Source: a virus. Taken from it: DNA of 40,101 bases. Under the pieces are notes generated by a model. That model searched no databases. It was not told the origin of the DNA and was given only the letters and a program-made list of their open reading frames with translations. Of this stretch, positions 3,188 through 36,104 are shown piece after piece (within the stretch, counting starts at the first letter, position 1; every line of letters starts with the position of its first letter). The stretch covers positions 1 to 40,101 of the IMG/VR virus record IMGVR_UViG_3300016457_000312; one strand, 5' to 3'. A program made the translations under genes and the position numbers.

Positions 3188-3966
3188 TTGTTGTGGTAGT
3201 TGTTCTATGCCTGACGGCTCTATCTGTCTGTGGCGATGAAGTCAATCTGCAGAGGGGGGTAAGTATTTATGGATCAACCGAGGGTGCATGGTTAGTTGAG
3301 GGAATTAGTGATTGGGGGTTTGGCAAGGCTGGCATCTATGGGGTCAATAATGCCGACACAGTAAAGCGTGAGACCTTCATACTACGGTGGGATAGTTTGT
3401 CTAATGCTATTCCTGGTGGCGTGGTAATAACCCACGCCGAGTTGAAGTTGAAAACCTTTATGCCCAGTACCGGACATCCATTATTGGCGTGGAGTAGTTG
3501 TGAATCTCTTTTTGTAGCACCAATAGAACAGGATTGGCTTTTTGCAGATTCATCCGCTTGGCATGGAAACGATGGTGGCCCAACCTGGACAGGCAGGGAT
3601 ACTGCGTGGAACATTGTAGGCGAAGAATACTCCTTCAAGGGAGGGAAGCAATGGACCACGCCCGGAGTTTATCCATTGTCGGCTGACAGCAATGTTGGGG
3701 CCACTGAGATAGGGAGTGAGTCAAATAAGTGGTATACGATTACGCTTGATCCTGATGTTGTACAGAGATACATTGATGGAGACAATTATGGATTGGTTTG
3801 TTATATGGGGCAAACGGAGGATGCGTGGGAGGACGGGGACGCCCATCGGCGATGTTTTTATAGTCCCTATCACGACACTGTGGCTTGGCGACCAATTTTG
3901 ATATTAGAGTATTATATGCCTGGTGCAATGAAGGGTGTTACAATTTCGGGGGCTACAAAACAATGA
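3175..3966 (+). CDS. Secreted DNRLRE/CBM96-like beta-sandwich protein
   Basis: The 263-residue protein has a very hydrophobic N-terminus (MVRIIVVVVVLCLTALSVC); the Cys could suggest a lipoprotein, but LSVC is a poor lipobox, so cleavage type is uncertain. The mature part follows the pattern of DNRLRE-type domains: ILRWDSL with IPGGVVITHAELKLKTF (residues about 70-98), a Trp-rich middle with SSAWHGNDGGPTW, then WYTITLDPDVVQRYIDGDNYGLVCY and a final RPILILEYY strand. Such domains occur in secreted surface proteins and include carbohydrate-binding modules. Here it may bind host surface glycans. The gene overlaps the protease upstream by 13 bases and the next begins 7 bases downstream. The fold assignment is a pattern match and the ligand is unknown. 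Confidence 0.6.
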   Translation: MVRIIVVVVVLCLTALSVCGDEVNLQRGVSIYGSTEGAWLVEGISDWGFGKAGIYGVNNADTVKRETFILRWDSLSNAIPGGVVITHAELKLKTFMPSTGHPLLAWSSCESLFVAPIEQDWLFADSSAWHGNDGGPTWTGRDTAWNIVGEEYSFKGGKQWTTPGVYPLSADSNVGATEIGSESNKWYTITLDPDVVQRYIDGDNYGLVCYMGQTEDAWEDGDAHRRCFYSPYHDTVAWRPILILEYYMPGAMKGVTISGATKQ

Positions 3967-3973
3967 GGATATT

Positions 3974-4675
3974 ATGAAACTACACGAGAAAATACTAATT
4001 GTGCTGGCTGTGATTGTTGCGGTGTTCTGCATAGTTGCACCCAAGCTGTTTGCCGGTGATGCTGGGTGGGGGCAATCGTGGGATAAGGTCTATTGGCCCA
4101 TAAGCTACTGGAACCAGGGTGCGGAGTGTGATAGTGGAAAAGCGTACCTTGGGTATCCAAGCTCCTCGAATTATTACGATACAGTCGATCTGGCTCCCTA
4201 CACTTACGATAGCACGATTCTCTACTATGATAGTCTGTATTTGGACTCGACGGGCGTTCATAGGACTATGATTGTTTTCTACGAGCGGGGGGTCGCTACG
4301 CCGGATACGGTATATGGGGCATGGAATAATGCCGTTGCGTGGGATCGTCCCGCTCCACCGGCAAACGGGACGGCAAATATCTGTCGAGTCTTTGGTTATT
4401 TAGTCGACCTTGGGGCTGAATGGGTGGAACACGCAACGGTCGAAGCAACGTTGGGTAAGAAGGGGATTATTGACACTTGTGCAAATACGTTGGTTTTTGA
4501 TCGAACGGTAGCTGGTCCCACAAGCGGAGTGGGGGGGTATTTCTACATTGACCTGATCTATTCCAGTTGTATTGGCGGTGAGAAGTATAAGCTCACGGTT
4601 TCTAAGTACGGCGTTGGCGAGGAGAGTGTGAATATCGAAGTACCTGACCAAGATACATTGAGGGTGACGTGGTGA
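3974..4675 (+). CDS. Secreted protein of unknown function, beta-rich
   Basis: I choose the ATG at 3974, preceded by GAGGAT, over an upstream in-frame start inside the previous gene, because it directly begins a signal peptide (MKLHEKILIVLAVIVAVF, probable cut after PKLFA). The protein is 233 residues. The mature part is rich in Asp, Tyr and Thr, with segments such as YYDTVDLAPYTYDSTILYY. The last 100 residues (VFGYLVDLGAEWVEHATVEATL through KYKLTVSKYG) resemble a carboxypeptidase-regulatory or other Ig-like beta-sandwich. No enzyme motif is visible. The stop overlaps the start of the endolysin gene by one base (TGATG), so it sits at the end of the secreted cassette and just before lysis. It could be a virion appendage or a secreted factor. 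Confidence 0.65.
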   Translation: MKLHEKILIVLAVIVAVFCIVAPKLFAGDAGWGQSWDKVYWPISYWNQGAECDSGKAYLGYPSSSNYYDTVDLAPYTYDSTILYYDSLYLDSTGVHRTMIVFYERGVATPDTVYGAWNNAVAWDRPAPPANGTANICRVFGYLVDLGAEWVEHATVEATLGKKGIIDTCANTLVFDRTVAGPTSGVGGYFYIDLIYSSCIGGEKYKLTVSKYGVGEESVNIEVPDQDTLRVTW

Positions 4676-5100
4676 TGGACAAGCAGAACGCAAAATACTG
4701 GTTTTTACAAACAGCCTTATCATTCCAGAACACTCTTTATCGTTGGGGCGGTGACGATCCGAGCGGTCTGGACTGTTCCGGCCTTGTTGTCGAATGTCTG
4801 AAGTCTGTTGGTCTTATGAGAAATAAAGCCGATGCTACGGCTAACCAATTATTTCTACAACATAAAGCCAATGAGGTAACAAAACCCACCGAGGGTTGTT
4901 TAGCCTTTTGGTTCGACGGTGCGACCGATCTTGTTACCCATGTCGCTGTTTGTCTCGATGAGGATGTTTGTCTTACAGCTGGTGGCGGTGGATCGCATAT
5001 TTACACAAGGGAGGATGCAATCAGACAAAATGCCTTTGTGAAGATTCGCCCGATAGATCACCGACGATCAAAACCGAAGTATATAGACTTGTTTCAATAA
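4675..5100 (+). CDS. NlpC/P60-type cell-wall peptidase (endolysin)
   Basis: The 141-residue protein starts at ATG 4675, overlapping the previous stop. It has the NlpC/P60 signature: YRWGGDDPSGLDCSGLV at residues 22-38 with the catalytic Cys34 in DCSG, and THVAVCL with the catalytic His89. This family cuts peptide links in murein, usually D-gamma-Glu to diaminopimelate. The protein is close to the size of a single catalytic domain, with no signal peptide and no separate cell-wall-binding domain, which fits a holin-released endolysin of a Gram-negative phage. A tail-associated hydrolase is the alternative, but the next gene looks like a holin, so lysis is the better reading. The gene is followed after 20 bases by the holin candidate. 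Confidence 0.85.
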   Translation: MDKQNAKYWFLQTALSFQNTLYRWGGDDPSGLDCSGLVVECLKSVGLMRNKADATANQLFLQHKANEVTKPTEGCLAFWFDGATDLVTHVAVCLDEDVCLTAGGGGSHIYTREDAIRQNAFVKIRPIDHRRSKPKYIDLFQ

Positions 5101-5120
5101 GGTGAAAGAGAAATATATAT

Positions 5121-5414
5121 ATGAACATTTTTCACAAAATAGCGGGGGCCGTTATCGGTCCCATTATCCGAAAGGAGATAATGAAAGTGATAAAAGAATT
5201 TATTCAACCCATTCTGGACCTGATTAAAACCCTGGTTCAACCAGAAAAGGGGACCAAGTTCCTGATTACTCTGGCTGTTGTCGGTAGTGTGGCCTATCTC
5301 CACAAAGCCGGTATAGCCACAACCTCAAGCGATCTCGGACTGGTAGCACTTGCCATTGCCTACTACGGCTTTGACACTTTTCACAAACTCAAAAAAGACG
5401 GCGGTGGAAAATGA
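5121..5414 (+). CDS. Holin candidate with possible dual start
   Basis: The 97-residue protein has two hydrophobic segments, about 46-60 (FLITLAVVGSVAYL) and 70-86 (SDLGLVALAIAYYGF), and a short lysine-rich C-terminus (HKLKKDGGGK). Size, two membrane segments, charged tail and position between endolysin and the next lysis-region gene fit a small holin. A second in-frame ATG at 5181 is preceded by AAAGGAGATA, a better ribosome binding site than that of the first ATG although close to the codon. It would give a 77-residue form lacking the semi-hydrophobic first 20 residues. Dual starts that make holin and antiholin are known in other phages. The stop overlaps the next start (ATGA). Confidence 0.6.
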   Translation: MNIFHKIAGAVIGPIIRKEIMKVIKEFIQPILDLIKTLVQPEKGTKFLITLAVVGSVAYLHKAGIATTSSDLGLVALAIAYYGFDTFHKLKKDGGGK

Positions 5415-5866
5415 AGGCAATATCTATTCTTTTGGTTCTGTTGCTGGCGACCGGAGTGACGGCTCAAGATGAGCAGGTGAACACGGCGGCCTTTGCTGGT
5501 GGCCAATATGACAACGATGAAGGCTGGTCGGTTACTTATGGCAGTGGTTATCGGCTTTCCGGCCCGCTGTGGACTATTACCCGCCTGACAGCAGGATCGT
5601 TTAGTGCCGTAGAAGTTGATATCGCGGCTGTGACGGGGCTTGGCGATTTCATGTTAGGCGTTGTCGGCGGCCCCAATGTGGACTGGTCCGGCGGGGAAGA
5701 TGTCGTGACCTACCTTGTCGGTGGTGTTGGCGGAATCGCCGGATGGGAGCACGTCCCCTCCGGTCTCAGTATAGTCTTTGGAGCTAAGTACAAGTTCTCC
5801 TTTGAGGGGGATAATTACTACAAAGACGGCTGGCAGACAGGTCTTTGGCTGGCCAAGGGGCTGTAA
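5411..5866 (+). CDS. Small exported beta-barrel-like protein (outer membrane?)
   Basis: The 151-residue protein has a signal peptide (MKAISILLVLLLATGVTA then QDEQ). The mature part alternates polar and hydrophobic residues with many Gly, Tyr and Trp, in strand-like pieces: GWSVTYGSGYRL, LWTITRLTAGSF, AVEVDIAAVTGL, FMLGVVGGPNVDW, VTYLVGGVGGIAGWEHV, LSIVFGAKYKFSF and GWQTGLWLA. This is the texture of a small outer-membrane beta-barrel. It starts inside the holin stop (ATGA) and is the last gene of the late arm. Roles to consider are outer-membrane disruption at lysis in place of spanins, which I do not see in the window, or a superinfection-blocking surface protein. No lipobox is present. The function is an inference from position. 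Confidence 0.6.
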   Translation: MKAISILLVLLLATGVTAQDEQVNTAAFAGGQYDNDEGWSVTYGSGYRLSGPLWTITRLTAGSFSAVEVDIAAVTGLGDFMLGVVGGPNVDWSGGEDVVTYLVGGVGGIAGWEHVPSGLSIVFGAKYKFSFEGDNYYKDGWQTGLWLAKGL

Positions 5867-5879
5867 TATCACATATACG

Positions 5880-5919
5880 GAGAATATGGGTTAGACCACA
5901 ACGGGGGATGCCCATTCTC
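5880..5919 (+). other. Hairpin after the last late gene
   Basis: GAGAAT at 5880 pairs with ATTCTC at 5914-5919, and the adjoining GGG and CCC add to the stem after a small bulge. The loop is C/A/G-rich. It lies 13 bases beyond the stop of the beta-barrel gene and ahead of the stronger terminator hairpin. It may protect the 3' end of the late transcript. There is no T run of its own. Confidence 0.4.
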
Positions 5920-5980
5920 GGCCGCCTCGCTATCACTGTGAGCCATTTAGCCTCGTAGTGGTATATCGGGGCGGCCTTTT
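5920..5980 (+). terminator. Terminator of the late arm in the convergent gap
   Basis: GGCCGCCTCG at 5920-5929 pairs with CGGGGCGGCC at 5967-5976 (one G-T pair), immediately followed by TTTT at 5977-5980. The stem can be extended inward by TATCACT with AGTGGTA. It lies between the last rightward gene (ending 5866) and the last leftward gene (ending 6022), so it is where the two arms meet. The T run favours stopping rightward transcription. Confidence 0.65.
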
Positions 5981-6021
5981 CGTAAGTGTCCCTTAGAAGC
6001 CAACTCTCATTGAATTGCTAT

Positions 6022-6231
6022 TTACCTGTGTTTATATGTCCTGCGATGGTCGACACAGTTTTTCGCCCTCGGTATCTCGCTCAGATATGCGCACCTGGTA
6101 CGCCAAACCTTGAGACAGGCGAGACATTGGATCAGGCTATCTTTGCGCCGAATCTCTAAAACTCGCCAAGGCCTGTCCCCGGCCGATAACTTCGAGGCCG
6201 CGCAACCGCAACCCTGTCTACGTCCAACCAT
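6022..6231 (-). CDS. Small Cys-rich, probably zinc-binding protein
   Basis: From ATG 6231 the product is 69 residues; a GTG at 6252, directly after the upstream stop, would add seven. I prefer the ATG because AAGGGAAGAG precedes it at a usable distance. The protein has CGC near the start, then IQCLACLKVWRTRCAYLSEIP with C-x2-C and further Cys, a pattern like the short zinc-ribbon proteins frequent in phages. It is basic and could bind nucleic acid. It is the last gene of the early arm and ends about 40 bases from the terminator region. No named family is recognised. Confidence 0.55.
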   Translation of the reverse strand: MVGRRQGCGCAASKLSAGDRPWRVLEIRRKDSLIQCLACLKVWRTRCAYLSEIPRAKNCVDHRRTYKHR

Positions 6232-6252
6232 GATACTCTTCCCTTTCCGCAC

Positions 6253-6435
6253 TCATCTCAGGTGTCTGCAATAAAATAGTTTCGAAATTCGCTCATTGAG
6301 CTTATCTAATCTCATTTTTAGTTCTTTGGCCTGCTTTCTATCGAGCGGGTGGTTGCTGTCCTTGACATTCTCGAACCACTTCCGCGTTGCGTCTCTACGC
6401 TTACGGGCTTCCTTCAATTCGTCATTTATGTTCAT
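6253..6435 (-). CDS. Short charged helical protein
   Basis: The 60-residue protein is almost wholly Lys/Arg/Glu/Asp-rich (KEARKRRDATRKWFENV, AKELKMRLDKLNERISKLF) with heptad-like Leu spacing, so it is likely an alpha-helical coiled coil. The start at 6435 has a purine-rich site (GGAAAGGG) upstream. It ends directly before the next gene. No family is recognised; a small regulatory or DNA-binding role would be a guess. Confidence 0.55.
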   Translation of the reverse strand: MNINDELKEARKRRDATRKWFENVKDSNHPLDRKQAKELKMRLDKLNERISKLFYCRHLR

Positions 6436-6453
6436 CGGTCATCACCCTTTCCT

Positions 6454-6660
6454 TTATTTGCCCTTGTAGCAAAACCAGCATCGAGGCGCAAACGGCGGTC
6501 TACGGTTGAGTAATTCTAATCGGGGCGAATCGGAGCATTGCACAAACTCCCGCCCGCATACCGTTGTGTATACTACGTCTTGCAAACGTGGGCTTTGCCA
6601 CACCGACTTGATCCGGTGGAGCATTCCCGACTTTGTGCGCAAATGTTTAGAGTCTGTCAT
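6454..6660 (-). CDS. Small phage protein with Cys pairs
   Basis: The 68-residue protein starts MTDSKHLRTK and contains VVYTTVCGREF in the middle and a C-terminal CWFC motif (APRCWFCYKGK). The two Cys clusters suggest one zinc site. An AGAGG site lies four bases before the ATG. The first 16 bases of the coding sequence nearly match those of the next gene upstream (6981), both giving MTD-(S/P)-K. The function is unknown. Confidence 0.55.
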   Translation of the reverse strand: MTDSKHLRTKSGMLHRIKSVWQSPRLQDVVYTTVCGREFVQCSDSPRLELLNRRPPFAPRCWFCYKGK

Positions 6661-6681
6661 TCTGCCTCTTCTTTCTTCAAC

Positions 6682-6981
6682 TCAGATTCTATGCCGTCCA
6701 AAAAACAAATGGAGTGGATCAAGGGCCATTGGGCTTTGCGGAACAGTCCCGTCACTAAGCACGTCAACCGCCTTAATCAGCAAAAGCCCGAAGTGGGTTG
6801 CGAGAGCCGTCCCCCTCAAGGCTTGGGTTTGCTCATCGTCTTTTTGCGCTGGCCGTGTCCTGATTAGATAGCAGAAGTCCGCAAGCGAATGACTTAATGC
6901 GTGGGCTTCCTCTTTCGAGAACCTGACCGTTACAGATTGATCGCTTTTGTTGATATGGGTTTGCCATTTAGGGTCTGTCAT
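6682..6981 (-). CDS. Hypothetical early protein
   Basis: The 99-residue protein starts MTDPKWQTHINK, with AAGGAC upstream of the ATG. The segment SVTVRFSKEEAHALSHSLADFCYLI looks like a strand followed by a helix, as in small phage regulatory proteins, and the rest is mostly helical (THFGLLLIKAVDVL). No Cys pair, membrane segment or signal peptide is visible. It lies 9 bases downstream of the nucleotidyltransferase gene in the same operon. I do not recognise the family. Confidence 0.55.
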   Translation of the reverse strand: MTDPKWQTHINKSDQSVTVRFSKEEAHALSHSLADFCYLIRTRPAQKDDEQTQALRGTALATHFGLLLIKAVDVLSDGTVPQSPMALDPLHLFFGRHRI

Positions 6982-6990
6982 TTTTTGTCC

Positions 6991-8082
6991 TTAAAATGGT
7001 TTCCGGCGAAACGATTTTCCGCCACTGTTTTTAGCTCCTACCACTGTCTCTCTCGGCAGGCGCATCCGCCCGATTCCGCAGATTGGGCATTTGATTGATT
7101 TCTTGACCAGATCGCCCGGCCCGACCTTAATGATCTTGGTCGCCGGACACCGGGCGCAATAGTATTTTAATGTTGGCATTTTGCTATCCCTTCCGCACTT
7201 GTGACTTATTTTTTTGATTATTCCATTTCCCAGTCTGACGGATTCACCAGCTTCGCCGCCGATGTGTCCGATGATGTCCTCGTCTCCTAAACTTGGTCTT
7301 CCTTGAAAGCTGTAGAACATCTCTAATAATAATTTATTTATCGCTTCCATATCTGGCGTGTCTGGAAGGGGGGACGTTTCCATGGCCTCCGCCGCCGCCT
7401 CAAAAAGTGCGTTGGCCTCACGTTTAACCTTTTCCATGCTCCACTTACCTTGCTTTATGTCCCGTAGCTCATCAGCATCATCGGTTCGGAACACTGTAAG
7501 TTCTCCTGTGTTCAAAAACTCAACACCCATCCTCAATAACCGGATCAAATGAGACGCGTTTTTTGTATCGTAACCATAATTATCCACCAATAGCTTGCGC
7601 TTGGTCCCCATATACCCCTGATACTTTTGCGCGGTCATCTTCTTTAATTGACTCTTGGCGTAACCAACAAATGAAGGATATGCCAGCTTAGTGGCAAATA
7701 AATGCCTATTGTTTATCAATAATTGGCCCTCGATTCTTATCGTTTCCATCATTTTTGGTATATTCCACAAAAAACCAAGCACATTGGGGTTGGCCTTTGT
7801 TAGCAATCGGACGAATTTCCTTAATTCATAAAATACAATGTCGTGATCTCGACCTTCGACTTTCTCCCAATACTCCATACCCTCGAAATGATCCAACCCG
7901 AAATAACAAGTTAGCGGGGCGACACATACCCCCATAAGATCAACGTCATCCGTACCCATCAGACTGTCTGGATGTATATACAGACCATGAGCAATGCTCC
8001 CCCTGTATCCATAGAGGATGGCACTGTTACGAGGCCGGAAACTAACCATAGAAGGTGAATTGTGACTTGTTTTTTTGCTCAT
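6991..8082 (-). CDS. RlaP-type (COG3541) nucleotidyltransferase with C-terminal zinc ribbon
   Basis: The 363-residue protein has the polymerase-beta-like nucleotidyltransferase core near its start: YGYRGSIAHGLY (residues 24-35, with G28-S29) and GTDDVDLMGV (43-52), whose Asp46 and Asp48 would bind metal. The following text (YELRKFVRLLTKANPNVLGFLW) matches the predicted nucleotidyltransferases of COG3541, the RNA-repair-associated DNA polymerase beta family RlaP. The last 60 residues add a zinc ribbon with Cys309/Cys312 and Cys332/Cys335 and a basic tail, which I do not expect in the plain family. It may add nucleotides to RNA ends, for example to mend tRNA cut by host defences, but the substrate is not known. 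The ATG overlaps the previous stop (ATGA) and has AAGGAG eight bases ahead. Confidence 0.75.
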   Translation of the reverse strand: MSKKTSHNSPSMVSFRPRNSAILYGYRGSIAHGLYIHPDSLMGTDDVDLMGVCVAPLTCYFGLDHFEGMEYWEKVEGRDHDIVFYELRKFVRLLTKANPNVLGFLWNIPKMMETIRIEGQLLINNRHLFATKLAYPSFVGYAKSQLKKMTAQKYQGYMGTKRKLLVDNYGYDTKNASHLIRLLRMGVEFLNTGELTVFRTDDADELRDIKQGKWSMEKVKREANALFEAAAEAMETSPLPDTPDMEAINKLLLEMFYSFQGRPSLGDEDIIGHIGGEAGESVRLGNGIIKKISHKCGRDSKMPTLKYYCARCPATKIIKVGPGDLVKKSIKCPICGIGRMRLPRETVVGAKNSGGKSFRRKPF

Positions 8083-16193: not shown

Positions 16194-16709
16194 ATGGGTA
16201 AGCAACTAACGGCAAAGCAGACAAAGGATAAGGACGATCAGATTGAGGCAGGTTCTATTCCTAAACTTGCCGAGATACTCTCGATGGTTGCCGATGTTAA
16301 TACTACCCCCCAGCGTCGCGCGATATTAGCTACAAAATGCCTGCCCCAAGCGGCGGGGTGGAGTCAATTACGAAAATCCGAATATGCGGGAGTCTGCACA
16401 CACACATGGTACAATGCGGAGCGCGATCCGAAGTTTAGAAAGCTATGCTTAGACTTTGTTAGAGACCGGCTGGGGACTTATTTGCCCGAATTGTGGCAAC
16501 GCTACGTTCAGTTGGCCCTCGACGGTGACCGCCAGGCACTTGAGCGCATATTCCAACAACTCGGCGTTATTGACAAACCGGAGAAAAACGACACCAACGT
16601 CACGGTTGTTGTGAGTGTGGAAGAAAGACAGAAACTGGAGCGAGCACGGGTTGCCAATCAGCGTAAGGGGTTAGAGTCTCTTGGTCTATTTTTGCCTTCT
16701 GATGGTTAG
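16194..16709 (+). CDS. Terminase small subunit
   Basis: The 171-residue protein starts at ATG 16194 with GGAG well placed. The middle contains a helix-turn-helix-like piece (YAGVCTHTWYNAERDPKFRKL, residues about 64-84), as in small subunits that bind packaging sites, then an oligomerising helix (YVQLALDGDRQALERIFQQLGVID), and a polar tail. It directly precedes and overlaps the large subunit gene, the standard order. It would recognise phage DNA and bring it to the motor. No further family detail is certain. Confidence 0.8.
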   Translation: MGKQLTAKQTKDKDDQIEAGSIPKLAEILSMVADVNTTPQRRAILATKCLPQAAGWSQLRKSEYAGVCTHTWYNAERDPKFRKLCLDFVRDRLGTYLPELWQRYVQLALDGDRQALERIFQQLGVIDKPEKNDTNVTVVVSVEERQKLERARVANQRKGLESLGLFLPSDG

Positions 16710-18150
16710 CATTATGGGTTTACAGCCTGCAATAAACAACCGATCATTACAAATCAACCCGTTTGAGTTGTTTATGGCGACTTATCTACCTCATTACTTG
16801 GAACTCAAGTCGGCGCCGTTTCACCATGAATGGGCCAATGCTTTCTGTGACGATTCCGAACAATATCTCGTTATCGAGACAACCAGGGGCGGTGGTAAAA
16901 CGACGTGGGGCGCCAAGGCGTTCGGGCTTTACACGATCTGTACCGGTAGCGATCCGGAGATGCAGATTGTGTCACGTTCCGGCGGGGCAACTGGTACAGC
17001 GCAGAAAATTATGCAGGCAATTATTCGGGAACTCGAACATAACCGGCTAATGATTACCGACTACGCCCTCACGAAAGGCGATTCGTGGGGGAAGGAACAT
17101 ATCCAGGTGGTTCGCGGTGACGGACATGTCGTAGACCTCTACTGCGTTGGGAAACACTCCTCAATTCGCGGCGCACGCGGTACTACCTGGATAGATGATC
17201 CCCAAGACGCGAAGGATTGTCGATCTGAGGTTGTTTTACAAGCCGATGAGGAATGGTTCTTTACTGATGTTTTGCCTGTTATGTTGCAGAATCAACGCAT
17301 GATTGCGATTGGTACGCCTATTAGCCCCTTGTCGCTGATGTCAAAGCTCAAGCAAGTTGAGGGGTTCAAGGTTATGTCGCACCCGATTGAGGACCCACCG
17401 TATAGCGGTAAGTCAGTTTGGCCAGAGCAATACTCTGACGAAAAGCTCCGGTTCCTCAAGGAAACAATGGGACTTGATCGCTATGCTGGTGAATATCTTT
17501 GTGATCCCAAAGTTTCTGGCAATCCCCTATTCAGGTCTGAATGGTTTCCTGATTACGACCCCAAATCTGAGGCGTTTCAGCGGGTTAAGCATAACGGGCT
17601 AAGGGTGGTTGTTGGTATGGATTGCGCCGAGTCTCAATCGTCCCAGGCTGATTATACGGCGATTATTACTCTCGGAGCTACACCTGGGGCTAATCCCGAT
17701 ATTTACGTATTGGACGTGCGCAGGCATCATTGGACAACAAGAGAGGGTGCGGAGCAGGTGTTTTTAGTCTATCGAGACTGGAAGCAGAACGCAACACAGG
17801 TTGAGAGCCGAGTTAAGGAAGAGCACGGCGGGGACGCCATGATCCAAGAGATTCGGAAGCTCGAGACTATGTACTCTCAGTTCGTGAACCTACATCCAAT
17901 CAAACCAACCTCCGACAAGGTGACGCGAGCGGCCCAAGTGCAATCAACCTGTCAGCAGGGGAGGGTGTACGTGAACAGGCGAGACCCGCAGACTCAGGCG
18001 TTCATGTCCGAACTTACGATGTTCACCGGATCGCAGAACTACCACGACGATATGGTTGATGCTTTCGCTCATGCGATGGCTGAGGTGCAGAAGATTAGTA
18101 AGAGCAGTAAGACTCAAATCAAATCAGGTTTAGCTGGAGCGTGGGCATGA
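16702..18150 (+). CDS. Terminase large subunit (ATPase/nuclease)
   Basis: The protein is about 482 residues. The frame is open from TTG 16681 (with AAGGGG ten bases ahead); ATGs at 16702 and 16714 are alternatives, and I list the middle one. The ATPase part has Walker A TTRGGGKTTW (about 16879-16908) and Walker B TWIDDPQ (about 17185-17205). The RNase H-like nuclease shows VGMDCAESQ at about 17611 with its first Asp, and the closing acidic pair in NYHDDMVDAFAHAM at about 18040. These are the core motifs of packaging motors. It pumps DNA into the prohead through the portal and cuts it. The stop overlaps a 22-codon ORF (ATGA). Confidence 0.95.
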   Translation: MVSIMGLQPAINNRSLQINPFELFMATYLPHYLELKSAPFHHEWANAFCDDSEQYLVIETTRGGGKTTWGAKAFGLYTICTGSDPEMQIVSRSGGATGTAQKIMQAIIRELEHNRLMITDYALTKGDSWGKEHIQVVRGDGHVVDLYCVGKHSSIRGARGTTWIDDPQDAKDCRSEVVLQADEEWFFTDVLPVMLQNQRMIAIGTPISPLSLMSKLKQVEGFKVMSHPIEDPPYSGKSVWPEQYSDEKLRFLKETMGLDRYAGEYLCDPKVSGNPLFRSEWFPDYDPKSEAFQRVKHNGLRVVVGMDCAESQSSQADYTAIITLGATPGANPDIYVLDVRRHHWTTREGAEQVFLVYRDWKQNATQVESRVKEEHGGDAMIQEIRKLETMYSQFVNLHPIKPTSDKVTRAAQVQSTCQQGRVYVNRRDPQTQAFMSELTMFTGSQNYHDDMVDAFAHAMAEVQKISKSSKTQIKSGLAGAWA

Positions 18151-23480: not shown

Positions 23481-23521
23481 TAGTATGATTCTTGTCTGGT
23501 CCGCCAGACGAGGATTATATT

Positions 23522-24799
23522 TTGGCTAACTTTGCAGATGGTCTTGCGGACGCGACTTACGCGACCACGACCTCAACGATGGATGCTGGTGTCCCCTCAA
23601 CGTTTTGGAGCAAAAGGTTCCTGTCGTTGTTGACGCAACAGATGGTCCTTCACCAATTCGCTCAGTTGAAACCGTTACCAGAGGGTAATGGTACTACGGT
23701 TGAGTTTAGCAGACCCCGCCCTCTCGATGCCGCTATGACAGCGCTGACTGAGGGCCAACACCCGAACGCTTCAGAAGTTCTCTGGCAGAAGGTCACGGCG
23801 ACTCTGGCCGAGTATGGCGATTTCGGGCAAATCACGTCGTTATTGTCTCAGGCTCACTTAAACCAGGAATTGCTCGGCGCTGTCGAGATATTCGCGGATC
23901 AGGCTGGTCAGACAATGAATCAGCTCTTATTGCGGGAAATAGTAGCTAATGGTAGTTATCACATTCCCGCTGACCTTTCGGCTACGTCGCAGTACAACGG
24001 GACGTTCACTACGGTTACGAGTAAGACGGAGTTGAAGTCAGCTGGTCTGGCGGCAAATTCCAACTACGGTGATGCCAATGATGACCTCAACGAGTCGGTT
24101 ATTACGATTCTTGATGGTCCGGCGGCTGGCGAGTCCAGACCTATCACCGATTATGTCACCTCTGATGGTGTAATGACGGTGCCAACGCTTGATATGTTGC
24201 CGGAAGCCGGTGACGCTTTCCACGTTTCGACCCCTGACGAGATTACCACTGGCGATGACTTGTCCTGGGCTAACGTCAAAAAGGCTCGCGCAATTCTCAA
24301 GACGAGATTGGCGAAGCCGTTTGCCGGTGGCTATCTTGTGATGGTTGTCGGCCCGGAAGAAGCTGCTGGCCTCATGGATGATGCTGTTTGGAAGAACTTG
24401 CAGTATTACAAGGATTCCGCTAAGGGTGGCTTCACAGGTGAACTTGGCAAGTACGCAGGTTTCCGTGTGGTTGAGCATACTACGCCATTCCAGTTCAACC
24501 TGTCGGCCTCACGAGGCACCGCGGGGTCTGGTGGTGTCCAAGCCGCAGGGGCTGGTTACGTTTCGGGGGGTGCCGTATCGTGCGTTCCTTGTTTCGGAAA
24601 GAACGCCTTTGCTTCAACCACCTTCAAGAAGAAGGGGAAGCAGGGGATGAAACCACCCGTCATCGTGAAACAGCCCAACAAGTACGATACGAGCAATCCG
24701 TTAAATCGGTATGCGACTGCTGGTTGGGTTATCGAGACGGTCAAGAAGTCGCTACGTGGCGATCATGTTGTTTGTATCAACGTGGACTCTACGCAGTAA
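23522..24799 (+). CDS. Major capsid protein, N4 gp56 family
   Basis: The frame is open from TTG 23492; I prefer TTG 23522, with GAGG eight bases ahead, giving 425 residues beginning ANFADGLADATYATTTSTMD. The text VPSTFWSKRFLSLLTQQMVLHQFAQLKPLPEGNGTTVEFSRPRPL followed by LTEGQHP and LAEYGDFGQIT is the typical N-terminal half of N4 gp56-family capsid proteins (TIGR04387), and RYATAGWVIETVKKSLRGDHVVCINV matches the family's end. The fold is HK97-like. A middle insertion (about residues 160-240, DGPAAGESRPITDYVT) may be a surface domain. A hairpin follows the stop. Confidence 0.9.
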   Translation: MANFADGLADATYATTTSTMDAGVPSTFWSKRFLSLLTQQMVLHQFAQLKPLPEGNGTTVEFSRPRPLDAAMTALTEGQHPNASEVLWQKVTATLAEYGDFGQITSLLSQAHLNQELLGAVEIFADQAGQTMNQLLLREIVANGSYHIPADLSATSQYNGTFTTVTSKTELKSAGLAANSNYGDANDDLNESVITILDGPAAGESRPITDYVTSDGVMTVPTLDMLPEAGDAFHVSTPDEITTGDDLSWANVKKARAILKTRLAKPFAGGYLVMVVGPEEAAGLMDDAVWKNLQYYKDSAKGGFTGELGKYAGFRVVEHTTPFQFNLSASRGTAGSGGVQAAGAGYVSGGAVSCVPCFGKNAFASTTFKKKGKQGMKPPVIVKQPNKYDTSNPLNRYATAGWVIETVKKSLRGDHVVCINVDSTQ

Positions 24800-29580: not shown

Positions 29581-30597
29581 ATGGGGCGAGTAACCACAGG
29601 CGGGACAATTGGTGATGTGCTGAAGCGGACGGGACAAGACTTGCCCCGCCTGGCTATGACGCTGGCTGATTTGCAGTACAGGAAAGAACAGCAGGAGCGT
29701 CAGGGTACTCTTGACACTCAGAACTTGGAACATCAGGGGGTGATGGAGCAACAGGGACAGGAACGCAACGACTTGGCGGCTCAAGGTGCAAAGATAGCGC
29801 AACAGAACGCCGACCTGAGGTTTGCTCAAGCGCAGAAGCAGATGCTTGGCGCAATGGGGGGACAACCACAAGAAACGCAACAGTTCGAGAATGAAAAAGA
29901 TTACAACCTCTATTTACGGCTTAATCGCCCCGATCAGTATTGGAGTGATAAGGAACGAGAGGCCAGTATTAAGCGAGGGGCAGGTAAAACAACCAAGCCT
30001 GCCAGCGTTGTTCCTGACATTGAGAAGTTCAGGGGTCAAGAGGCTGAGATAGAGAAGAATATCCAGAACTATCTTGGTGGCCCCAACGTAACGAGTGTCG
30101 ACGCCCAAGGTCAGCCGATTCCCGTCTATCGAGAAGATTCTCCGTTACAGGCGATTGACGACTACGGTCAGCCCCGATGGAAAGAAGAGCCGCCGACATT
30201 AGAGAATTATCTTGGTCGGCAGGCGGCCGATACGAGCATATTCCTACGCCAAACAGCGGGACAGCCACCAGAGGCGAAAACTCGGTACGGTGAGGCTCTC
30301 AGTGAGGCTATGCCTGGCATGGAACCTTGGATTCGGGAATACTTGTACGGAGAGGAACCTGAGCCAACTCAACCAACTCGACAAGAAATAGGCAGGGAGC
30401 AAGCGGGGACTGACGCCAGATCAGCGGTCGAATGGCAACGAGGGCAACAGGGGCCAACGCCCCTTGCTCCAGCTTGGCAAGATTGGGGTTTCAATTCAAA
30501 AGAGGAAGCTATAGCGGATTTGGAGGCGAGTTACAAGGCTGGTGAGATCCCCAAGATTCAATATGAACAATACCTGAAGATGCTCGGAGTGCAATAG
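29581..30597 (+). CDS. Gln-rich internal virion protein candidate
   Basis: The 338-residue protein is helical and rich in Gln, Arg and Glu (LADLQYRKEQQERQGTLDTQ, RFAQAQKQMLGAMGG), a coiled-coil stretch at about residues 25-95, followed by Pro-rich, likely disordered segments. The position between a small internal protein and the 1835-residue protein fits an ejection-core component. Its stop shares a base with the next GTG (TAGTG), suggesting coupled, stoichiometric synthesis. Confidence 0.5.
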   Translation: MGRVTTGGTIGDVLKRTGQDLPRLAMTLADLQYRKEQQERQGTLDTQNLEHQGVMEQQGQERNDLAAQGAKIAQQNADLRFAQAQKQMLGAMGGQPQETQQFENEKDYNLYLRLNRPDQYWSDKEREASIKRGAGKTTKPASVVPDIEKFRGQEAEIEKNIQNYLGGPNVTSVDAQGQPIPVYREDSPLQAIDDYGQPRWKEEPPTLENYLGRQAADTSIFLRQTAGQPPEAKTRYGEALSEAMPGMEPWIREYLYGEEPEPTQPTRQEIGREQAGTDARSAVEWQRGQQGPTPLAPAWQDWGFNSKEEAIADLEASYKAGEIPKIQYEQYLKMLGVQ

Positions 30598-33500
30598 TGC
30601 CGAGTCCTCCGTGGCGACAACCTCAACAGGCACGGCCAACCCCGCCGTGGCGACAAACGGGGCCTGATGCGCCCAATGGCAGGTCATTGGAACAGATACA
30701 GCCTGATATTCAGTCTGTTTCACAAGGGGGCGGATCCGGTTATCAACACCCGGCATTTGAAGCAAGGAAGCCCTTTCTCCCTGAGTCCATAGGTACGGGT
30801 TACCCTATAGCCAATCTACTCTGGTCAAAGGTTCTCCGTCCCGGCGCGTCCCATATTTCCGAAAAAGTTGGTGACGCTATTTCTCGTATGCGTGAGGGCG
30901 GGGCATCCCTTTCAAGGCGTTTCTCTGATGCGGGGAAAGCCGCCAACCTTTTCGTGGAAAACGAAATAACGGGTGTACCCCGACCTGAGGCTGAAATATC
31001 CGAGGGGCCAGGTATAATGCGTCAGACCCGTATGGGTGATCCGGCAACCGGAATGGATGTCGGCCCGGTCCCCTGGTCTAAAGCTGAACTGAAATATCGA
31101 GACCTAAAGGAAAACTCGCCCACCGGTGTTGCTGAGTTAATGCAAGTACCCCGATATATGACTCGGCGGACAACTATAGCCCCACAGTTCTTTGGACACT
31201 TTGCCGCGACGGCGTTAGAACCCGAACATGGCAGGACACCGGAAGAACAGGCCGGAGGGTGGTCTGGCAATATCGGTAGTGCTATGGGTGAAGAAGTCAA
31301 GGGTCTTGGTGGAATGGCCACCGCTATTCCGGCAACAGCAATCACCGCAATGGCTAATCTGAGCGGCGAATCCGTGATGGATCGGTTCAGACGCTATCAA
31401 TCCGGTGAAGTTGGTGGTGAAATTGAGGGTGACTTTGAGCGCACGAAGCGTTGGTACAAGTGGCTAACGGGCAATGAACTGACCGAACAAGAGTTTGCCA
31501 ACATGGTCGCTGGCGTGTACGAGGCACCCGAAACGGCTGAGTTTGCCTTACGTATGGGGGGTGAAGCGTTCGGTGGCGCGGTTAAAGGCGGTCGCTCACT
31601 CGCTGGTATAATGAGGAAGAAACCGCCAAAGATGCCGCCAAACGTACCGCCAAAGATGCCGTTAGGTGAACCTAAAGCTCCAAAGCCTGTCGTTAAACCC
31701 CCGATTTCACGGGAAACTGGCAAGAAACCGGCTAAAAGTGCGGTTGTTTTGCAGTCTCCCAAACAAATAGCTAATGGGCTTGGTGTCAAGATTACCGGCA
31801 AACAAGAAGATTTTGTCAAGCCAAACGGTAAGATCATCAAGGGACATTATGAGATATATGATCCTAAGACTGGGGGCAATTACAACGTCAAGGATATTGG
31901 CGAGTTGTCGACTAAGGTGGCCGAGAAACGCATTGAGTTCGATAAGGGCAGTACAATCGCCGAGAAGGGCGAGACCAAGTACCAATATGGTAATAGCCAG
32001 GCCACGATCCCGAAGGAGACCGAGGCCGCCCAAGGACTGAAGGGTGCTCGCTCCAAGATTGCCCAGAAAGATCATATGGCCCAGGGGACCGACGTCGGCG
32101 GGGACCATGTGACCGTTCGCTACGGCATCAAGGGCGACAACACGGCCGGTATTCGGAAGTATCTGGAGGAGCAATCGCCATTCCAGGTGACGCTCCGCTC
32201 ATCAAAGAAATTCGAGCCGAGCGAGTCCAGCGACAACGCGGCGGTCATCTATGCTCCAGCCGAATCCGCTGATCTGAGCCGCCTAAACGTTGAGCTGGAA
32301 AGTCACGGCGATTTCATTCCACCGACTCAAGGTAAGTATAAGCCCCATGCGACCATAGCCTATGTCAAGCCGGAAGCCGCAGACAAGTATGTCGGTATGA
32401 GCGAGACCGAAGGCAAATCGTTCACGGTTGACCGGATTGTCATCTCAAAGGCGGATGGGACTAAGGAGGCTATCAAGCTGGCGAGCGCAAAGCCGCCCGT
32501 CACGCCCGAACCAGAGGCCAAGCCGCCGACTACTAAGCTAAAGGCAAGGCCAACTGTTGCAAAAACTGCAACGGTTCATCCAACTGTCAAGAAATCGTTG
32601 ACGGTTGAGGGCAAGCAACACGCTCCCCACGATATGCCTAAGGGATGGACGGTCCGCGTTCAATCTAACTGGCGCAAATCCCCAGGGTGGAAGGCCGAAG
32701 TTGATTGGCGGGAAAAACAAATTGTTTTTGAAACGAAAGCTGATGCCGCAAATCCCAGTATTGTGAACCATGAAATAGCACACATATTAATTGAAGATAA
32801 ACTTCTGGATGTTGGTTACGGGATTCAAGAAATGTCTGAAAGCAAAAGCTCGTTCTTAAACGAGTATGCTAAGACTACAAACCATATGGGTTCACCACCT
32901 AATTTTGTAAAAGAACTAATGGCTATGGATTATGGTAATTATTTATCTGACCCAACTTCTGTTACACCTAAGGTGGCTGATGTTTTTAATAAATATATGA
33001 CCAAACCCATTGCCAAGACGCAAAAAGAAGCGGCTGTTGACGTTGCCCGAAAGCGGGCGGAACGCAAGGCCAGGTCCACCGCCAAGACGCCGAAGAAGAT
33101 AGCTAAAGGCATCGCTGGCGCAACAGGTATCGCTGGAGCGTTAAAGCGAGACAAGCCGACCTCAAAAGTCAAAACCGCTCCGAAGGTTCCGACCCCTCCG
33201 CCGAAACCTCCCACAGTCAAGGGGTTACCAAGCAAGCCACATCAAATAGTTGGCTTAAGCAAGGTTGAAAACGCCGAAGTCCGCCGCCGCTATGGATTGG
33301 ATAAGTTACCGAAAGACAGGGTTGAGTCGTTTACTTATTCGGCGTCTGAGGCGAAATTGAGGGGATTGGATAAGTCGGCCATTGAAACGGCTCGTGAAGT
33401 TCTGAAGTCAAAAAGACCCTTATCAGCGACTGAGCGTGCGGGGATGAACCTTAAGGCGGCGGAACTTATTCGGGAATATGAAAAGACGGAAGCCGATGTT

Positions 33501-36104
33501 TCAAGGTTGATCGAAGAGGGGCAGATAAATAAGGCGTCACGGGCGAGAATCAGGGCTGAGGCCATATTAGACAATCTTGAGCTTTTGACCGAGGGATCGG
33601 ATGTCGGGGGCAGGGAGCTTGGAAGAGGTATGTCTATCGGTCGTATGCTGATAGACTCCGAGAGCATGGACTTGGCCTCTGTTATGCGAAGATATCGAGT
33701 GGCCAAGACGAAGCCAGCAACGGACAAGGAGATCACTCAGCAGAAAGAGCTTGTCAGGAAATATGAAGAGGCTACGGAAGAACTTGAGCGGGCCAGGGCT
33801 GAAAATAACAGGTTGATCGCTGAGAGAGAAAAGGCAATCGCCGAGCGAATCGCCGCCATTGAAACTAAGAAATCTAAAATATCGTCTCGCGCGGCCAAGT
33901 CCCGCTCTAAGATACTCACAGAGCGTGCGGACATTCAAAAACAGTTACAGGGCTTAGGGTTTAGGCGTAACGACATAACGGGCGTATCCGCAGAGGGATC
34001 GTACCTGATCGGACGGTTGGCCTTAAATTATATTCGTGAGGGCGTTGTTACATTAGATGAAGTTGTCCGTAAGGTGATCGCCGATTTTCCCGACATAACT
34101 GAACGTGATGTGTGGCGTGCCCTGAATGAGCGAGACCCCAAACGCCAACGCAAGCTACAAAGTGAAGCCCAAAGGCAAGAGAGGTTTCTGAAAAGGCAGG
34201 CCCGACTTTTAGAAAACATAGCAAAGGCGGAAGAAGGGATTTTCCACAAGCCCAAAAAGAGAGCGGAAGCTACGGCCGAGATTAAAGCCTTACAGAAAAA
34301 ATACAGACAGTTGCGGCGTGACGCTTACAAAAAAGGAAACAACGACATTCAGGCCGACCTGTTGGAACGCACCTTGTTACGTATTAGTGAAGCTACGGAG
34401 CAATTAGAGGGCCAGTATCGCTCTGTTCGTAAGGGTAAGACTATTCCATCTGAGGAAGTCGCCTCGGCTCGTGCTAAATTAAAAGAAATTCGGACTACAA
34501 TGCGGACCCAAGACAGGTTAGCCGATTTACAGGAACAGCTTCGCACCGGTGATTTTAAGGACACAAAACCCGCGCCGGCGAAAAGTGAGTCTCGTAAATT
34601 GACCAAGGCTCGCATTGATGTTAAGCGTGCCCGCAGAGCGATACAGCAAGCGAAAGAGGATGCTCGGCCCTGGGGTGTTGGCAAGGTGTGGGGTGAGCTT
34701 ATTCACACGCAGAGAACCGCTAAGGCCACAGGGGACGTGTCTTTTACCTTTAGACAGTTAATCCTCCCCGTATTAGCTCATCCCTTTGTGGCGGCGAAAG
34801 TTTCAGTCAAGGCCCTTCAAGCCATGTTCCATAGCTATACGTGTGAAAAGATAAACACATTCTTGCGGGACGGCCCGGATTCGTATATTTACGATGTCGC
34901 GGGGGTGAAGATATTAGACTCCAGTTCTCCAGTGATGTCTCAGCGGGCCGACATTTTTAGGGCGAGATTGCTTGAAAAAATCCCCGTCCTCGGTCATATT
35001 ATTAGGGGGTCGAATCGTCATGCCACAACACTTGGGAACCTTTTCCGCACATATTTATTTGATCGCTGGTACAAACAGAATCCCAATGCCACCGTTCCCG
35101 AAATGAGGGCCTACGGGGATGTTGTCAATGTGTTCACGGGCATTGGCGATCTAAGTAAACTCGGCCCGACGACTCGCAAGATTTTATCGGCTGGTTTGTG
35201 GTCTCCCGAATTAACGACCAGCAGATTCCAGGCTCCGTATATGATATGGAAGTACCGGAAGATGCCTCGCGTGCGCAAACAGATAGCGATGGAATACGCA
35301 AGGGCCATTGGAACGGGAATGACGCTCATGGCCATAGCCAAGCTCTATTGGCCAGAAGCCGATATAGGCACAAATCCCGAAGACGCCGACTTCGGGAAGA
35401 TCGTATATAAAAACTCCCATATTGATATTTGGGGTGGATTTCAACAACCGATTCGATTGATGTTGCGGGGCTTACTTATCGGGACGGATTTAGCGGGAGT
35501 TACCGGACGTGAGTTAGAGACGCGGAAAAGAGAAAAAGACTACTATAAGATTTTGTCTCAATATCTTTCATACAAGGTGTCCCCCATTGTGGGGCTTGCC
35601 CGTGAAATAACCACCGGAAAGACGGCGGTCGGGGAGAAAATATCTATCCCCGAAGCTCTAAAAGGTTCCGTCACCCCGTTTACCATACAGGATATTAAAG
35701 ACGCGAACAAGATAGAGGGTGTCGGTTGGGTTGTCGCTGGCGGGATGGCTCTTACTGGAGTTGGAATTGGTACTTATGAGCGTAAGTATGACAGGCTGGA
35801 CGCTCTCGTTGAACTCAAGAAAACTAATTACAGTGAGTACGTTAAGTCTCGGTTGGCGTGGAATAAGGCTAACCCAACGAGGAAGATCACACCCGAAGCC
35901 GTAACCAAGCACGGTAAATGGGATACGGTTGTGGCCAAACGGACGCGCAGGGAAAGTCGTATCGGTCGGTTATTGAAGTCGGGCCAGCGTGAAGAAGCGA
36001 TGAAAGCTCTGAAAGAGTGGAACGCTCGATATCCCAAGTCCACGATAACTTTGCCCTTGCAATCAACATCGAAAACACGTAAAAAAAGTAGGCCAAAAAG
36101 ATAA
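30597..36104 (+). CDS. Giant multidomain internal/ejected virion protein (1835 aa)
   Basis: The start is GTG 30597. The Pro-rich N-terminal region is followed by a Gly/Ala-rich part with hydrophobic helices (residues 230-340). A 2H-phosphoesterase-like domain at about 480-625 has HVTV (His504) and HATI (His584), two HxT motifs 80 residues apart. A zincin-like domain at about 685-800 has HEIAH (725-729). Residues 1000-1340 are mainly charged coiled coil. The C-terminal part, about 1355-1735 (FTFRQLILPVLAHPFVAAKV, NRHATTLGNLFRTYLFD, ILSAGLWSPELTTSRFQ), resembles the large module found at the end of phage polyvalent/internal proteins. It probably enters the cell with the DNA and may counter host defence early. 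The 2H region is GC-rich, the zincin region AT-rich, so modules were likely gained separately. Confidence 0.7.
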   Translation: MPSPPWRQPQQARPTPPWRQTGPDAPNGRSLEQIQPDIQSVSQGGGSGYQHPAFEARKPFLPESIGTGYPIANLLWSKVLRPGASHISEKVGDAISRMREGGASLSRRFSDAGKAANLFVENEITGVPRPEAEISEGPGIMRQTRMGDPATGMDVGPVPWSKAELKYRDLKENSPTGVAELMQVPRYMTRRTTIAPQFFGHFAATALEPEHGRTPEEQAGGWSGNIGSAMGEEVKGLGGMATAIPATAITAMANLSGESVMDRFRRYQSGEVGGEIEGDFERTKRWYKWLTGNELTEQEFANMVAGVYEAPETAEFALRMGGEAFGGAVKGGRSLAGIMRKKPPKMPPNVPPKMPLGEPKAPKPVVKPPISRETGKKPAKSAVVLQSPKQIANGLGVKITGKQEDFVKPNGKIIKGHYEIYDPKTGGNYNVKDIGELSTKVAEKRIEFDKGSTIAEKGETKYQYGNSQATIPKETEAAQGLKGARSKIAQKDHMAQGTDVGGDHVTVRYGIKGDNTAGIRKYLEEQSPFQVTLRSSKKFEPSESSDNAAVIYAPAESADLSRLNVELESHGDFIPPTQGKYKPHATIAYVKPEAADKYVGMSETEGKSFTVDRIVISKADGTKEAIKLASAKPPVTPEPEAKPPTTKLKARPTVAKTATVHPTVKKSLTVEGKQHAPHDMPKGWTVRVQSNWRKSPGWKAEVDWREKQIVFETKADAANPSIVNHEIAHILIEDKLLDVGYGIQEMSESKSSFLNEYAKTTNHMGSPPNFVKELMAMDYGNYLSDPTSVTPKVADVFNKYMTKPIAKTQKEAAVDVARKRAERKARSTAKTPKKIAKGIAGATGIAGALKRDKPTSKVKTAPKVPTPPPKPPTVKGLPSKPHQIVGLSKVENAEVRRRYGLDKLPKDRVESFTYSASEAKLRGLDKSAIETAREVLKSKRPLSATERAGMNLKAAELIREYEKTEADVSRLIEEGQINKASRARIRAEAILDNLELLTEGSDVGGRELGRGMSIGRMLIDSESMDLASVMRRYRVAKTKPATDKEITQQKELVRKYEEATEELERARAENNRLIAEREKAIAERIAAIETKKSKISSRAAKSRSKILTERADIQKQLQGLGFRRNDITGVSAEGSYLIGRLALNYIREGVVTLDEVVRKVIADFPDITERDVWRALNERDPKRQRKLQSEAQRQERFLKRQARLLENIAKAEEGIFHKPKKRAEATAEIKALQKKYRQLRRDAYKKGNNDIQADLLERTLLRISEATEQLEGQYRSVRKGKTIPSEEVASARAKLKEIRTTMRTQDRLADLQEQLRTGDFKDTKPAPAKSESRKLTKARIDVKRARRAIQQAKEDARPWGVGKVWGELIHTQRTAKATGDVSFTFRQLILPVLAHPFVAAKVSVKALQAMFHSYTCEKINTFLRDGPDSYIYDVAGVKILDSSSPVMSQRADIFRARLLEKIPVLGHIIRGSNRHATTLGNLFRTYLFDRWYKQNPNATVPEMRAYGDVVNVFTGIGDLSKLGPTTRKILSAGLWSPELTTSRFQAPYMIWKYRKMPRVRKQIAMEYARAIGTGMTLMAIAKLYWPEADIGTNPEDADFGKIVYKNSHIDIWGGFQQPIRLMLRGLLIGTDLAGVTGRELETRKREKDYYKILSQYLSYKVSPIVGLAREITTGKTAVGEKISIPEALKGSVTPFTIQDIKDANKIEGVGWVVAGGMALTGVGIGTYERKYDRLDALVELKKTNYSEYVKSRLAWNKANPTRKITPEAVTKHGKWDTVVAKRTRRESRIGRLLKSGQREEAMKALKEWNARYPKSTITLPLQSTSKTRKKSRPKR

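Follow-up and report, generated by a model that had tools for sequence, protein, structure and literature searches.

A 2H phosphoesterase domain with profile proximity to Acb1 as an exchangeable cassette in a giant, probable virion protein of a phage

That 2H phosphoesterase domains occur in polyvalent proteins injected by phages was already proposed in 2017 by Iyer et al., with the degradation of signals among the roles considered (PMC5512222). In the systems they described, the 2H domain is part of a huge phage protein encoded beside virion genes, it is accompanied by zincin, ART, MuF or portal partners, and a peptidase in the same protein may release the effectors. An RNase was their first option, since the RNase domain PBECR occurs in fusions with the same MuF or portal partners as 2H, and they found no association of the polyvalent 2H domains with RNA ligase (PMC5512222). 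Two further described enzymes are close to the domain reported here. Acb1 (T4 gp57B; FBB1, 7t26/7t27; BCSR5, 9q2g/9q2y; Pfam PF23474) is the anti-CBASS enzyme by which phages remove bacterial alarm signals, with 3'3' cyclic di- and trinucleotides as its substrates. It is usually a free protein of about 150 amino acids, in which Tyr12, Trp74, Phe107 and Trp147 stack onto the base and Glu141 contacts the adenine (PMC9117128). The RNA 2',3'-cyclic phosphodiesterase ThpR/LigT is a free cellular enzyme. Both share the 2H fold and the catalytic tetrad of two HxT motifs with our domain, which is embedded in a protein of 1835 residues.

The stretch of DNA analysed, hereafter the window, is a possibly incomplete virus record with a length of 40,101 bases. 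Its virion module starts with the gene for the terminase large subunit (16681..18150, plus strand; phrog_38, 234 bits), followed on the same strand by those for the major head protein (23492..24799; phrog_1357, 148.6 bits) and for two SU10-type adaptors of the short-tailed phage neck (25115..26445; PF24175, 43.3 and 36.3 bits). Downstream of these lies a giant open reading frame of 1835 codons with a GTG start (30597..36104, plus strand), which is thus flanked by the adaptor genes on one side and by a beta-helix fibre gene, located 3', on the other. SU10 is a short-tailed phage, the head of which releases five kinds of ejection proteins (PMC9509320). None of the PHROGs profiles matches the giant protein; by its place among virion genes it is probably a polyvalent virion or ejection protein, and it is likely to be packaged and ejected. 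At the left end of the window, behind five unassigned genes, a gene for an NlpC/P60 peptidase (4669-5100, plus strand; PF00877, 42.6 bits) is possibly part of a tail or lysis module.

Residues 459 to 630, approximately, of the giant protein form a 2H phosphoesterase domain (31971..32486, plus strand). Pfam model PF13563 matches the whole protein with 37.4 bits (E 3e-9, cut-off 27) and the domain alone with 42.2 bits, and homologue alignments span residues 452-630. The AlphaFold2 model of the domain, calculated from an alignment of 67 sequences, has a pLDDT of 94.6 and contains the two-lobed 2H core; VIA-align superimposes it onto many 2H enzymes with Z-scores of 12-15 over 136-165 residues. 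A preliminary description, made from the sequence alone, had claimed a 2H domain with HVT and HAT motifs 80 residues apart at 32050-32490. Domain and motifs are confirmed by these results, and the extent overlaps the domain, but its start leaves out strand 1 and helix 1 and has been corrected to give 31971-32486. Strand 1 (GNSQAT, residues 465-470, 31989..32006, plus strand; DSSP of the model) contains a conserved Ser/Thr-Gln, with Gln468 present in 50 of 59 homologues, and as it is part of the domain, we place the domain start near residue 459 (31971).

The first catalytic motif, HVT (His504-Thr506, 32106..32114), and the second, HAT (His584-Thr586, 32346..32354), both on the plus strand, are exactly 80 residues apart, and each sits in a beta strand of the predicted model (residues 51-58 and 131-137 in its numbering). 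The match of the fold suggests that His504 and His584 face each other in a cleft. On its own, the motif pair carries little weight: when the giant protein is shuffled with its composition preserved, 6% of the shuffles contain an HxT pair spaced by 60-110 residues, and the protein itself has a second pair, to which an unrelated HPT (residue 661) contributes.

Searches with a single sequence missed the relatives of the domain: phmmer against the PDB returned a spurious lysozyme-inhibitor match alone, and a scan of IMG/VR with the window domain gave zero relatives. Alignments were therefore needed. The window, phage Tunturi_5 and two standalone proteins of megaphages supplied four sequences; the profile of their alignment retrieved 342 relatives from IMG/VR, and loci were kept for the best 80 of these (68 distinct domain sequences). 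The domain resides in an open reading frame of at least 600 amino acids in 63 of these best 80, the median length over all 80 being 1776 amino acids; nine copies are near-standalone. Its partners in the reading frames of the clade are ART-PolyVal, GNAT, MuF, portal, SLT (transglycosylase), M15, LPD38 and ddrB-ParB domains. His504, Thr506, Gly510, His584, Thr586 and Tyr589 are invariant in 70 aligned sequences, and Gln468, Phe539, Lys591, Tyr598 and Gly606 are kept in 85-99% of them. The IMG/VR scan used patterns around both HxT motifs, so selection bias was checked. Sixteen of the 70 sequences show only the motif-1 pattern and 27 only the motif-2 pattern, and every one of them retains the other HxT; the invariance is thus more than an effect of selection. 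The phage 2H clade is far wider than a single phage. Among contigs of bacterial genomes, those with the closest copies come from Acidobacteria metagenome-assembled genomes, where the domain is again part of giant reading frames. A literature search returned neither an assay nor virion proteomics for any member of the clade.

The nearest isolate phage is Tunturi_5, which infects Tunturiibacter, a genus of the Acidobacteriota; for the window phage, too, a host from this group is plausible. Tunturi_5 gp321 (XOB77764) is a polyvalent protein of 1362 amino acids with a 2H domain 40% identical to ours and a SprT-like zincin. It differs from the window protein in having ART-PolyVal copies and a GNAT domain, and a homologue of the window C-terminal domain was not detected in it. 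The gp321 gene (3561-7649 of its locus, L002) is labelled as a MutT/NUDIX hydrolase; Pfam finds SprT-like, 2H, GNAT and ART-PolyVal domains there, and NUDIX is absent.

As to which 2H enzyme the domain resembles most, the structural comparison leaves several candidates about level. The highest Z-scores are those of ThpR-type structures (1iuh, 15.4; 5h7e, 15.1; range for ThpR/LigT 13-15), followed by human Usb1 (14.1), YjcG (14.0), another Usb1 structure (13.9), Acb1 (7t26, 12.6 over 136 of 137 residues) and the penguinpox cGAMP phosphodiesterase (12.3). With scores so nearly tied, the fold alone has no power to separate ThpR, Usb1, YjcG, AKAP18, Acb1 and the cGAMP phosphodiesterase.

Sequence profiles discriminate in part, and by this measure Acb1 enzymes are the nearest solved relatives; the comparison with Acb1 made in the preliminary description is thus better founded than the sequence alone could show. 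In a search of the PDB with the clade profile, Acb1 of Burkholderia phage BCSR5 came out on top (9q2g, E 1.5e-8; 9q2y, E 2e-6); FBB1 Acb1 (7t26, E 1.1e-4) came next, level with plant CPDase and YjcG, and ThpR-type 5h7e had an E-value of 0.17. A comparison by hhalign, limited to Acb1 and ThpR alignments, gave the clade a score of 82 (E 7e-13) with a profile of ten Acb1 sequences and of 52 (E 1e-7) with one of six ThpR sequences. Against single sequences, the scores were 35.7 for T4 Acb1, 59.6 for the BCSR5-type relative from BcepSauron and 24.0 for E. coli ThpR. In a tree rooted on ThpR, the 70 phage 2H domains form a clade of their own beside ten Acb1 sequences, with a support of 0.76 from a short alignment. 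The Pfam Acb1 model PF23474 recognises 63 of 70 clade members at E<=0.01, L005 being just over the cut-off; it gives no match to the window copy at E<=1, nor at E<=10 in a search of the record. The ThpR/LigT equivalog TIGR02258 scores 21.2 bits for the window, below its cut-off of 65.7. The profiles thus place the clade nearer to Acb1 than to ThpR.

Within the domain, the HxT/HxT tetrad falls into register with that of Acb1 in both hmmsearch and hhalign; in the hmmsearch alignments, the second HxT matches that of 7t26 and both HxT regions match those of 9q2g. The second motif has the Acb1 form YxPHxTxxY, reading YxPHxTxAY in the window, where ThpR has PHxTLxR. Phe539 (32211..32213, plus strand), a phenylalanine in 69 of 70 sequences, aligns with Trp74 of T4 Acb1 and would be a pocket aromatic. 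At the place of Phe107 the window has Gln578, the residue being Phe, His or Tyr in 60 of 70 sequences, and Asn466 occupies that of Tyr12, an assignment made by register and less certain than the other two. One of the three aromatics Tyr12, Trp74 and Phe107 is therefore kept in the window, as judged from sequence alignment. The C-terminal parts, including the lid region with Glu141 and Trp147, could not be aligned with Acb1 by hhalign, and the text EYxExLxLDW was not found in the window domain, which has a conserved tail of its own (Lys591, Tyr598, Gly606). The domain thus appears to have the anatomy of a 2H phosphodiesterase and part of the Acb1 pocket. Its assignment as Acb1 proper was rejected, given that PF23474 misses it, that it belongs to a separate clade and that one of three base-stacking aromatics is kept. 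The earlier suggestion of a 2H domain in an ejected protein holds for the catalytic motifs and, very probably, for the virion or ejection nature of the protein that contains it; as to Acb1, the window copy misses the Pfam model and most of the base-binding residues.

The reading that we favour, with a probability of about 0.45, is that the domain is a virion-delivered, metal-independent phosphodiesterase directed against oligonucleotide immune signals. The same fold could instead serve the healing of RNA ends, opening the RNA 2',3'-cyclic phosphates from host anticodon nucleases as ThpR/LigT and plant CPDase do. The ThpR-type structures at the head of the structural ranking agree with this, PF13563 is the best Pfam model, and the window genome carries a gene for RlaP, an RNA-repair-associated polymerase-beta nucleotidyltransferase (6991-8082, minus strand; PF10127, 70 bits). 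The closer profile match to Acb1 than to ThpR argues against it, as does the gene content of 50 domain-bearing contigs. RNA ligase models match only four of them, all longer than 92 kb, which agrees with Iyer et al. (PMC5512222), and the window is without an RNA ligase of the two families tested; this absence is soft evidence, because many of the 50 contigs may be fragments. RlaP was found in the window alone of the 50, so it is no recurrent partner of 2H, and it occurs in none of the 38 contigs with homologues of the C-terminal domain. A recurrent partnership of 2H with either RNA ligase or RlaP was rejected on these counts (4/50 and 1/50), and we consider RNA-end healing unlikely.

An RNase role, in which an effector delivered with the DNA would trim or cut host RNA in the manner of Usb1 and so hijack the cell, appears about equally improbable. 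It was the first option of Iyer et al. (PMC5512222), and Usb1 structures rank high in the structural comparison (Z 14.1 and 13.9); however, Usb1 is only 8% identical over 165 aligned residues and does not appear among the sequence-profile matches to solved structures.

Residues 1319-1727 of the giant protein (34551..35777, plus strand) form a conserved C-terminal domain with a homologue in MW202497 (27% identity, E 3e-18) and in 41 IMG/VR loci. Its AlphaFold2 model is mainly helical (pLDDT 81.7) and has no close fold in the PDB (best VIA Z 4.8); neither a recurrent Pfam family nor a PHROG match was found for its homologues. With about 400 residues and 41 homologues on viral contigs, it is a candidate new ejection-protein family, the role in ejection being suggested by gene context. 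The 905- and 338-residue proteins encoded upstream show no similarity to the proteins encoded before the homologue in MW202497, so synteny with that locus is positional only.

The C-terminal domain and the 2H domain largely occur apart. A search with PF13563 found 2H in none of the 38 tested contigs with C-terminal homologues, and the variable part of such proteins may hold other effectors, ART-PolyVal in L102 and a histidine phosphatase in L095. In the nearest full-length relatives, L087 and L088, which are about 33% identical over residues 850-1764, approximately, the 2H region is missing and the N-terminal half is unrelated. Conversely, loci recruited through 2H have just this domain in common with the window protein, in a few cases together with a short stretch before it. 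The exception is L054, which combines an M15 peptidase, 2H and the shared C-terminal part; L003 resembles the window protein in the C-terminal part and nowhere else. As the C-terminal homologues tested are without 2H, some having other effectors instead, 2H is a cassette that can be exchanged within a polyvalent, probably ejected protein. Behind it, residues 725-729 read HEIAH (32769..32783, plus strand), a putative zincin motif with a possible third ligand Glu in FVKELMAMDYGNYL; Pfam gives no match in this region. The order of the two resembles the polyvalent proteins of Iyer et al. (PMC5512222), and the window protein, like these, is large and built of dissimilar, shuffled domains: 2H by profile and fold, the C-terminal domain and, by motif only, HEIAH.

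The 2H domain of AKAP18 illustrates that this fold can work as a binding domain. A function of the window domain within the particle or its assembly, or in binding a ligand, away from the host cytoplasm, would suit a protein for which packaging and ejection are deduced from gene context only, and AKAP18 is among the VIA matches, but we hold it to be the least probable alternative, since both HxT motifs are fully conserved in 70 homologues, which favours catalysis, and since the ART and phosphatase cassettes in the same C-terminal family fit effectors and not assembly parts.

A second instance of a 2H domain tied to a virion protein was noticed in Pseudomonas phage psageK9. Directly behind the terminase, in the position of the portal, this phage encodes a 600-residue protein (L135:5322-7124, equal to NC_074661.1 41321-43123) that is annotated as hypothetical and looks portal-like by eye. 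Its C-terminal Acb1-like 2H domain is 31.5% identical to T4 Acb1 (E 6e-5). This apparent portal-Acb1 fusion lends independent support to virion-linked delivery of Acb1-type enzymes.

If the domain is indeed a virion-delivered phosphodiesterase, the giant protein would be a polyvalent protein from inside the virion of a short-tailed phage, in which the conserved C-terminal part would belong to the ejection or packaging machinery and the N-terminal half would carry exchangeable effector cassettes, 2H and, behind it, a peptidase of putative zincin type. At infection, 2H would enter the cell with the DNA, possibly released by this peptidase. Its catalysis, which we infer along with its packaging, ejection and substrate, would be metal-independent and carried out by the tetrad of His504/Thr506 and His584/Thr586. 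The bonds cut would be phosphodiesters adjoining a 2'-hydroxyl in small cyclic or linear oligonucleotides, and the targets bacterial immune signals, of CBASS type or related, which would be cut ahead of phage gene expression. More tentatively, environmental phages of a widespread clade may package 2H enzymes that are related to Acb1 and distinct from it in giant ejected proteins, and so destroy immune nucleotide signals, perhaps Acb1-resistant ones, as soon as infection starts and ahead of phage transcription.

A system of this kind was predicted in 2017, with the same roles, from a domain census free of assays. Added here are the extent of one clade, a measure of how close it is to Acb1, and the exchange of the cassette, shown by its presence and absence, on a conserved C-terminal module. 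The clade is common, with 342 relatives in a single virus collection, and most of the best 80 are within giant virion-type proteins. With about 175 residues, the domain is compact, and the 2017 prediction can now be tested on it directly. If true, a relative of Acb1 delivered by the virion would explain how fast nucleotide signalling is neutralised ahead of phage expression.
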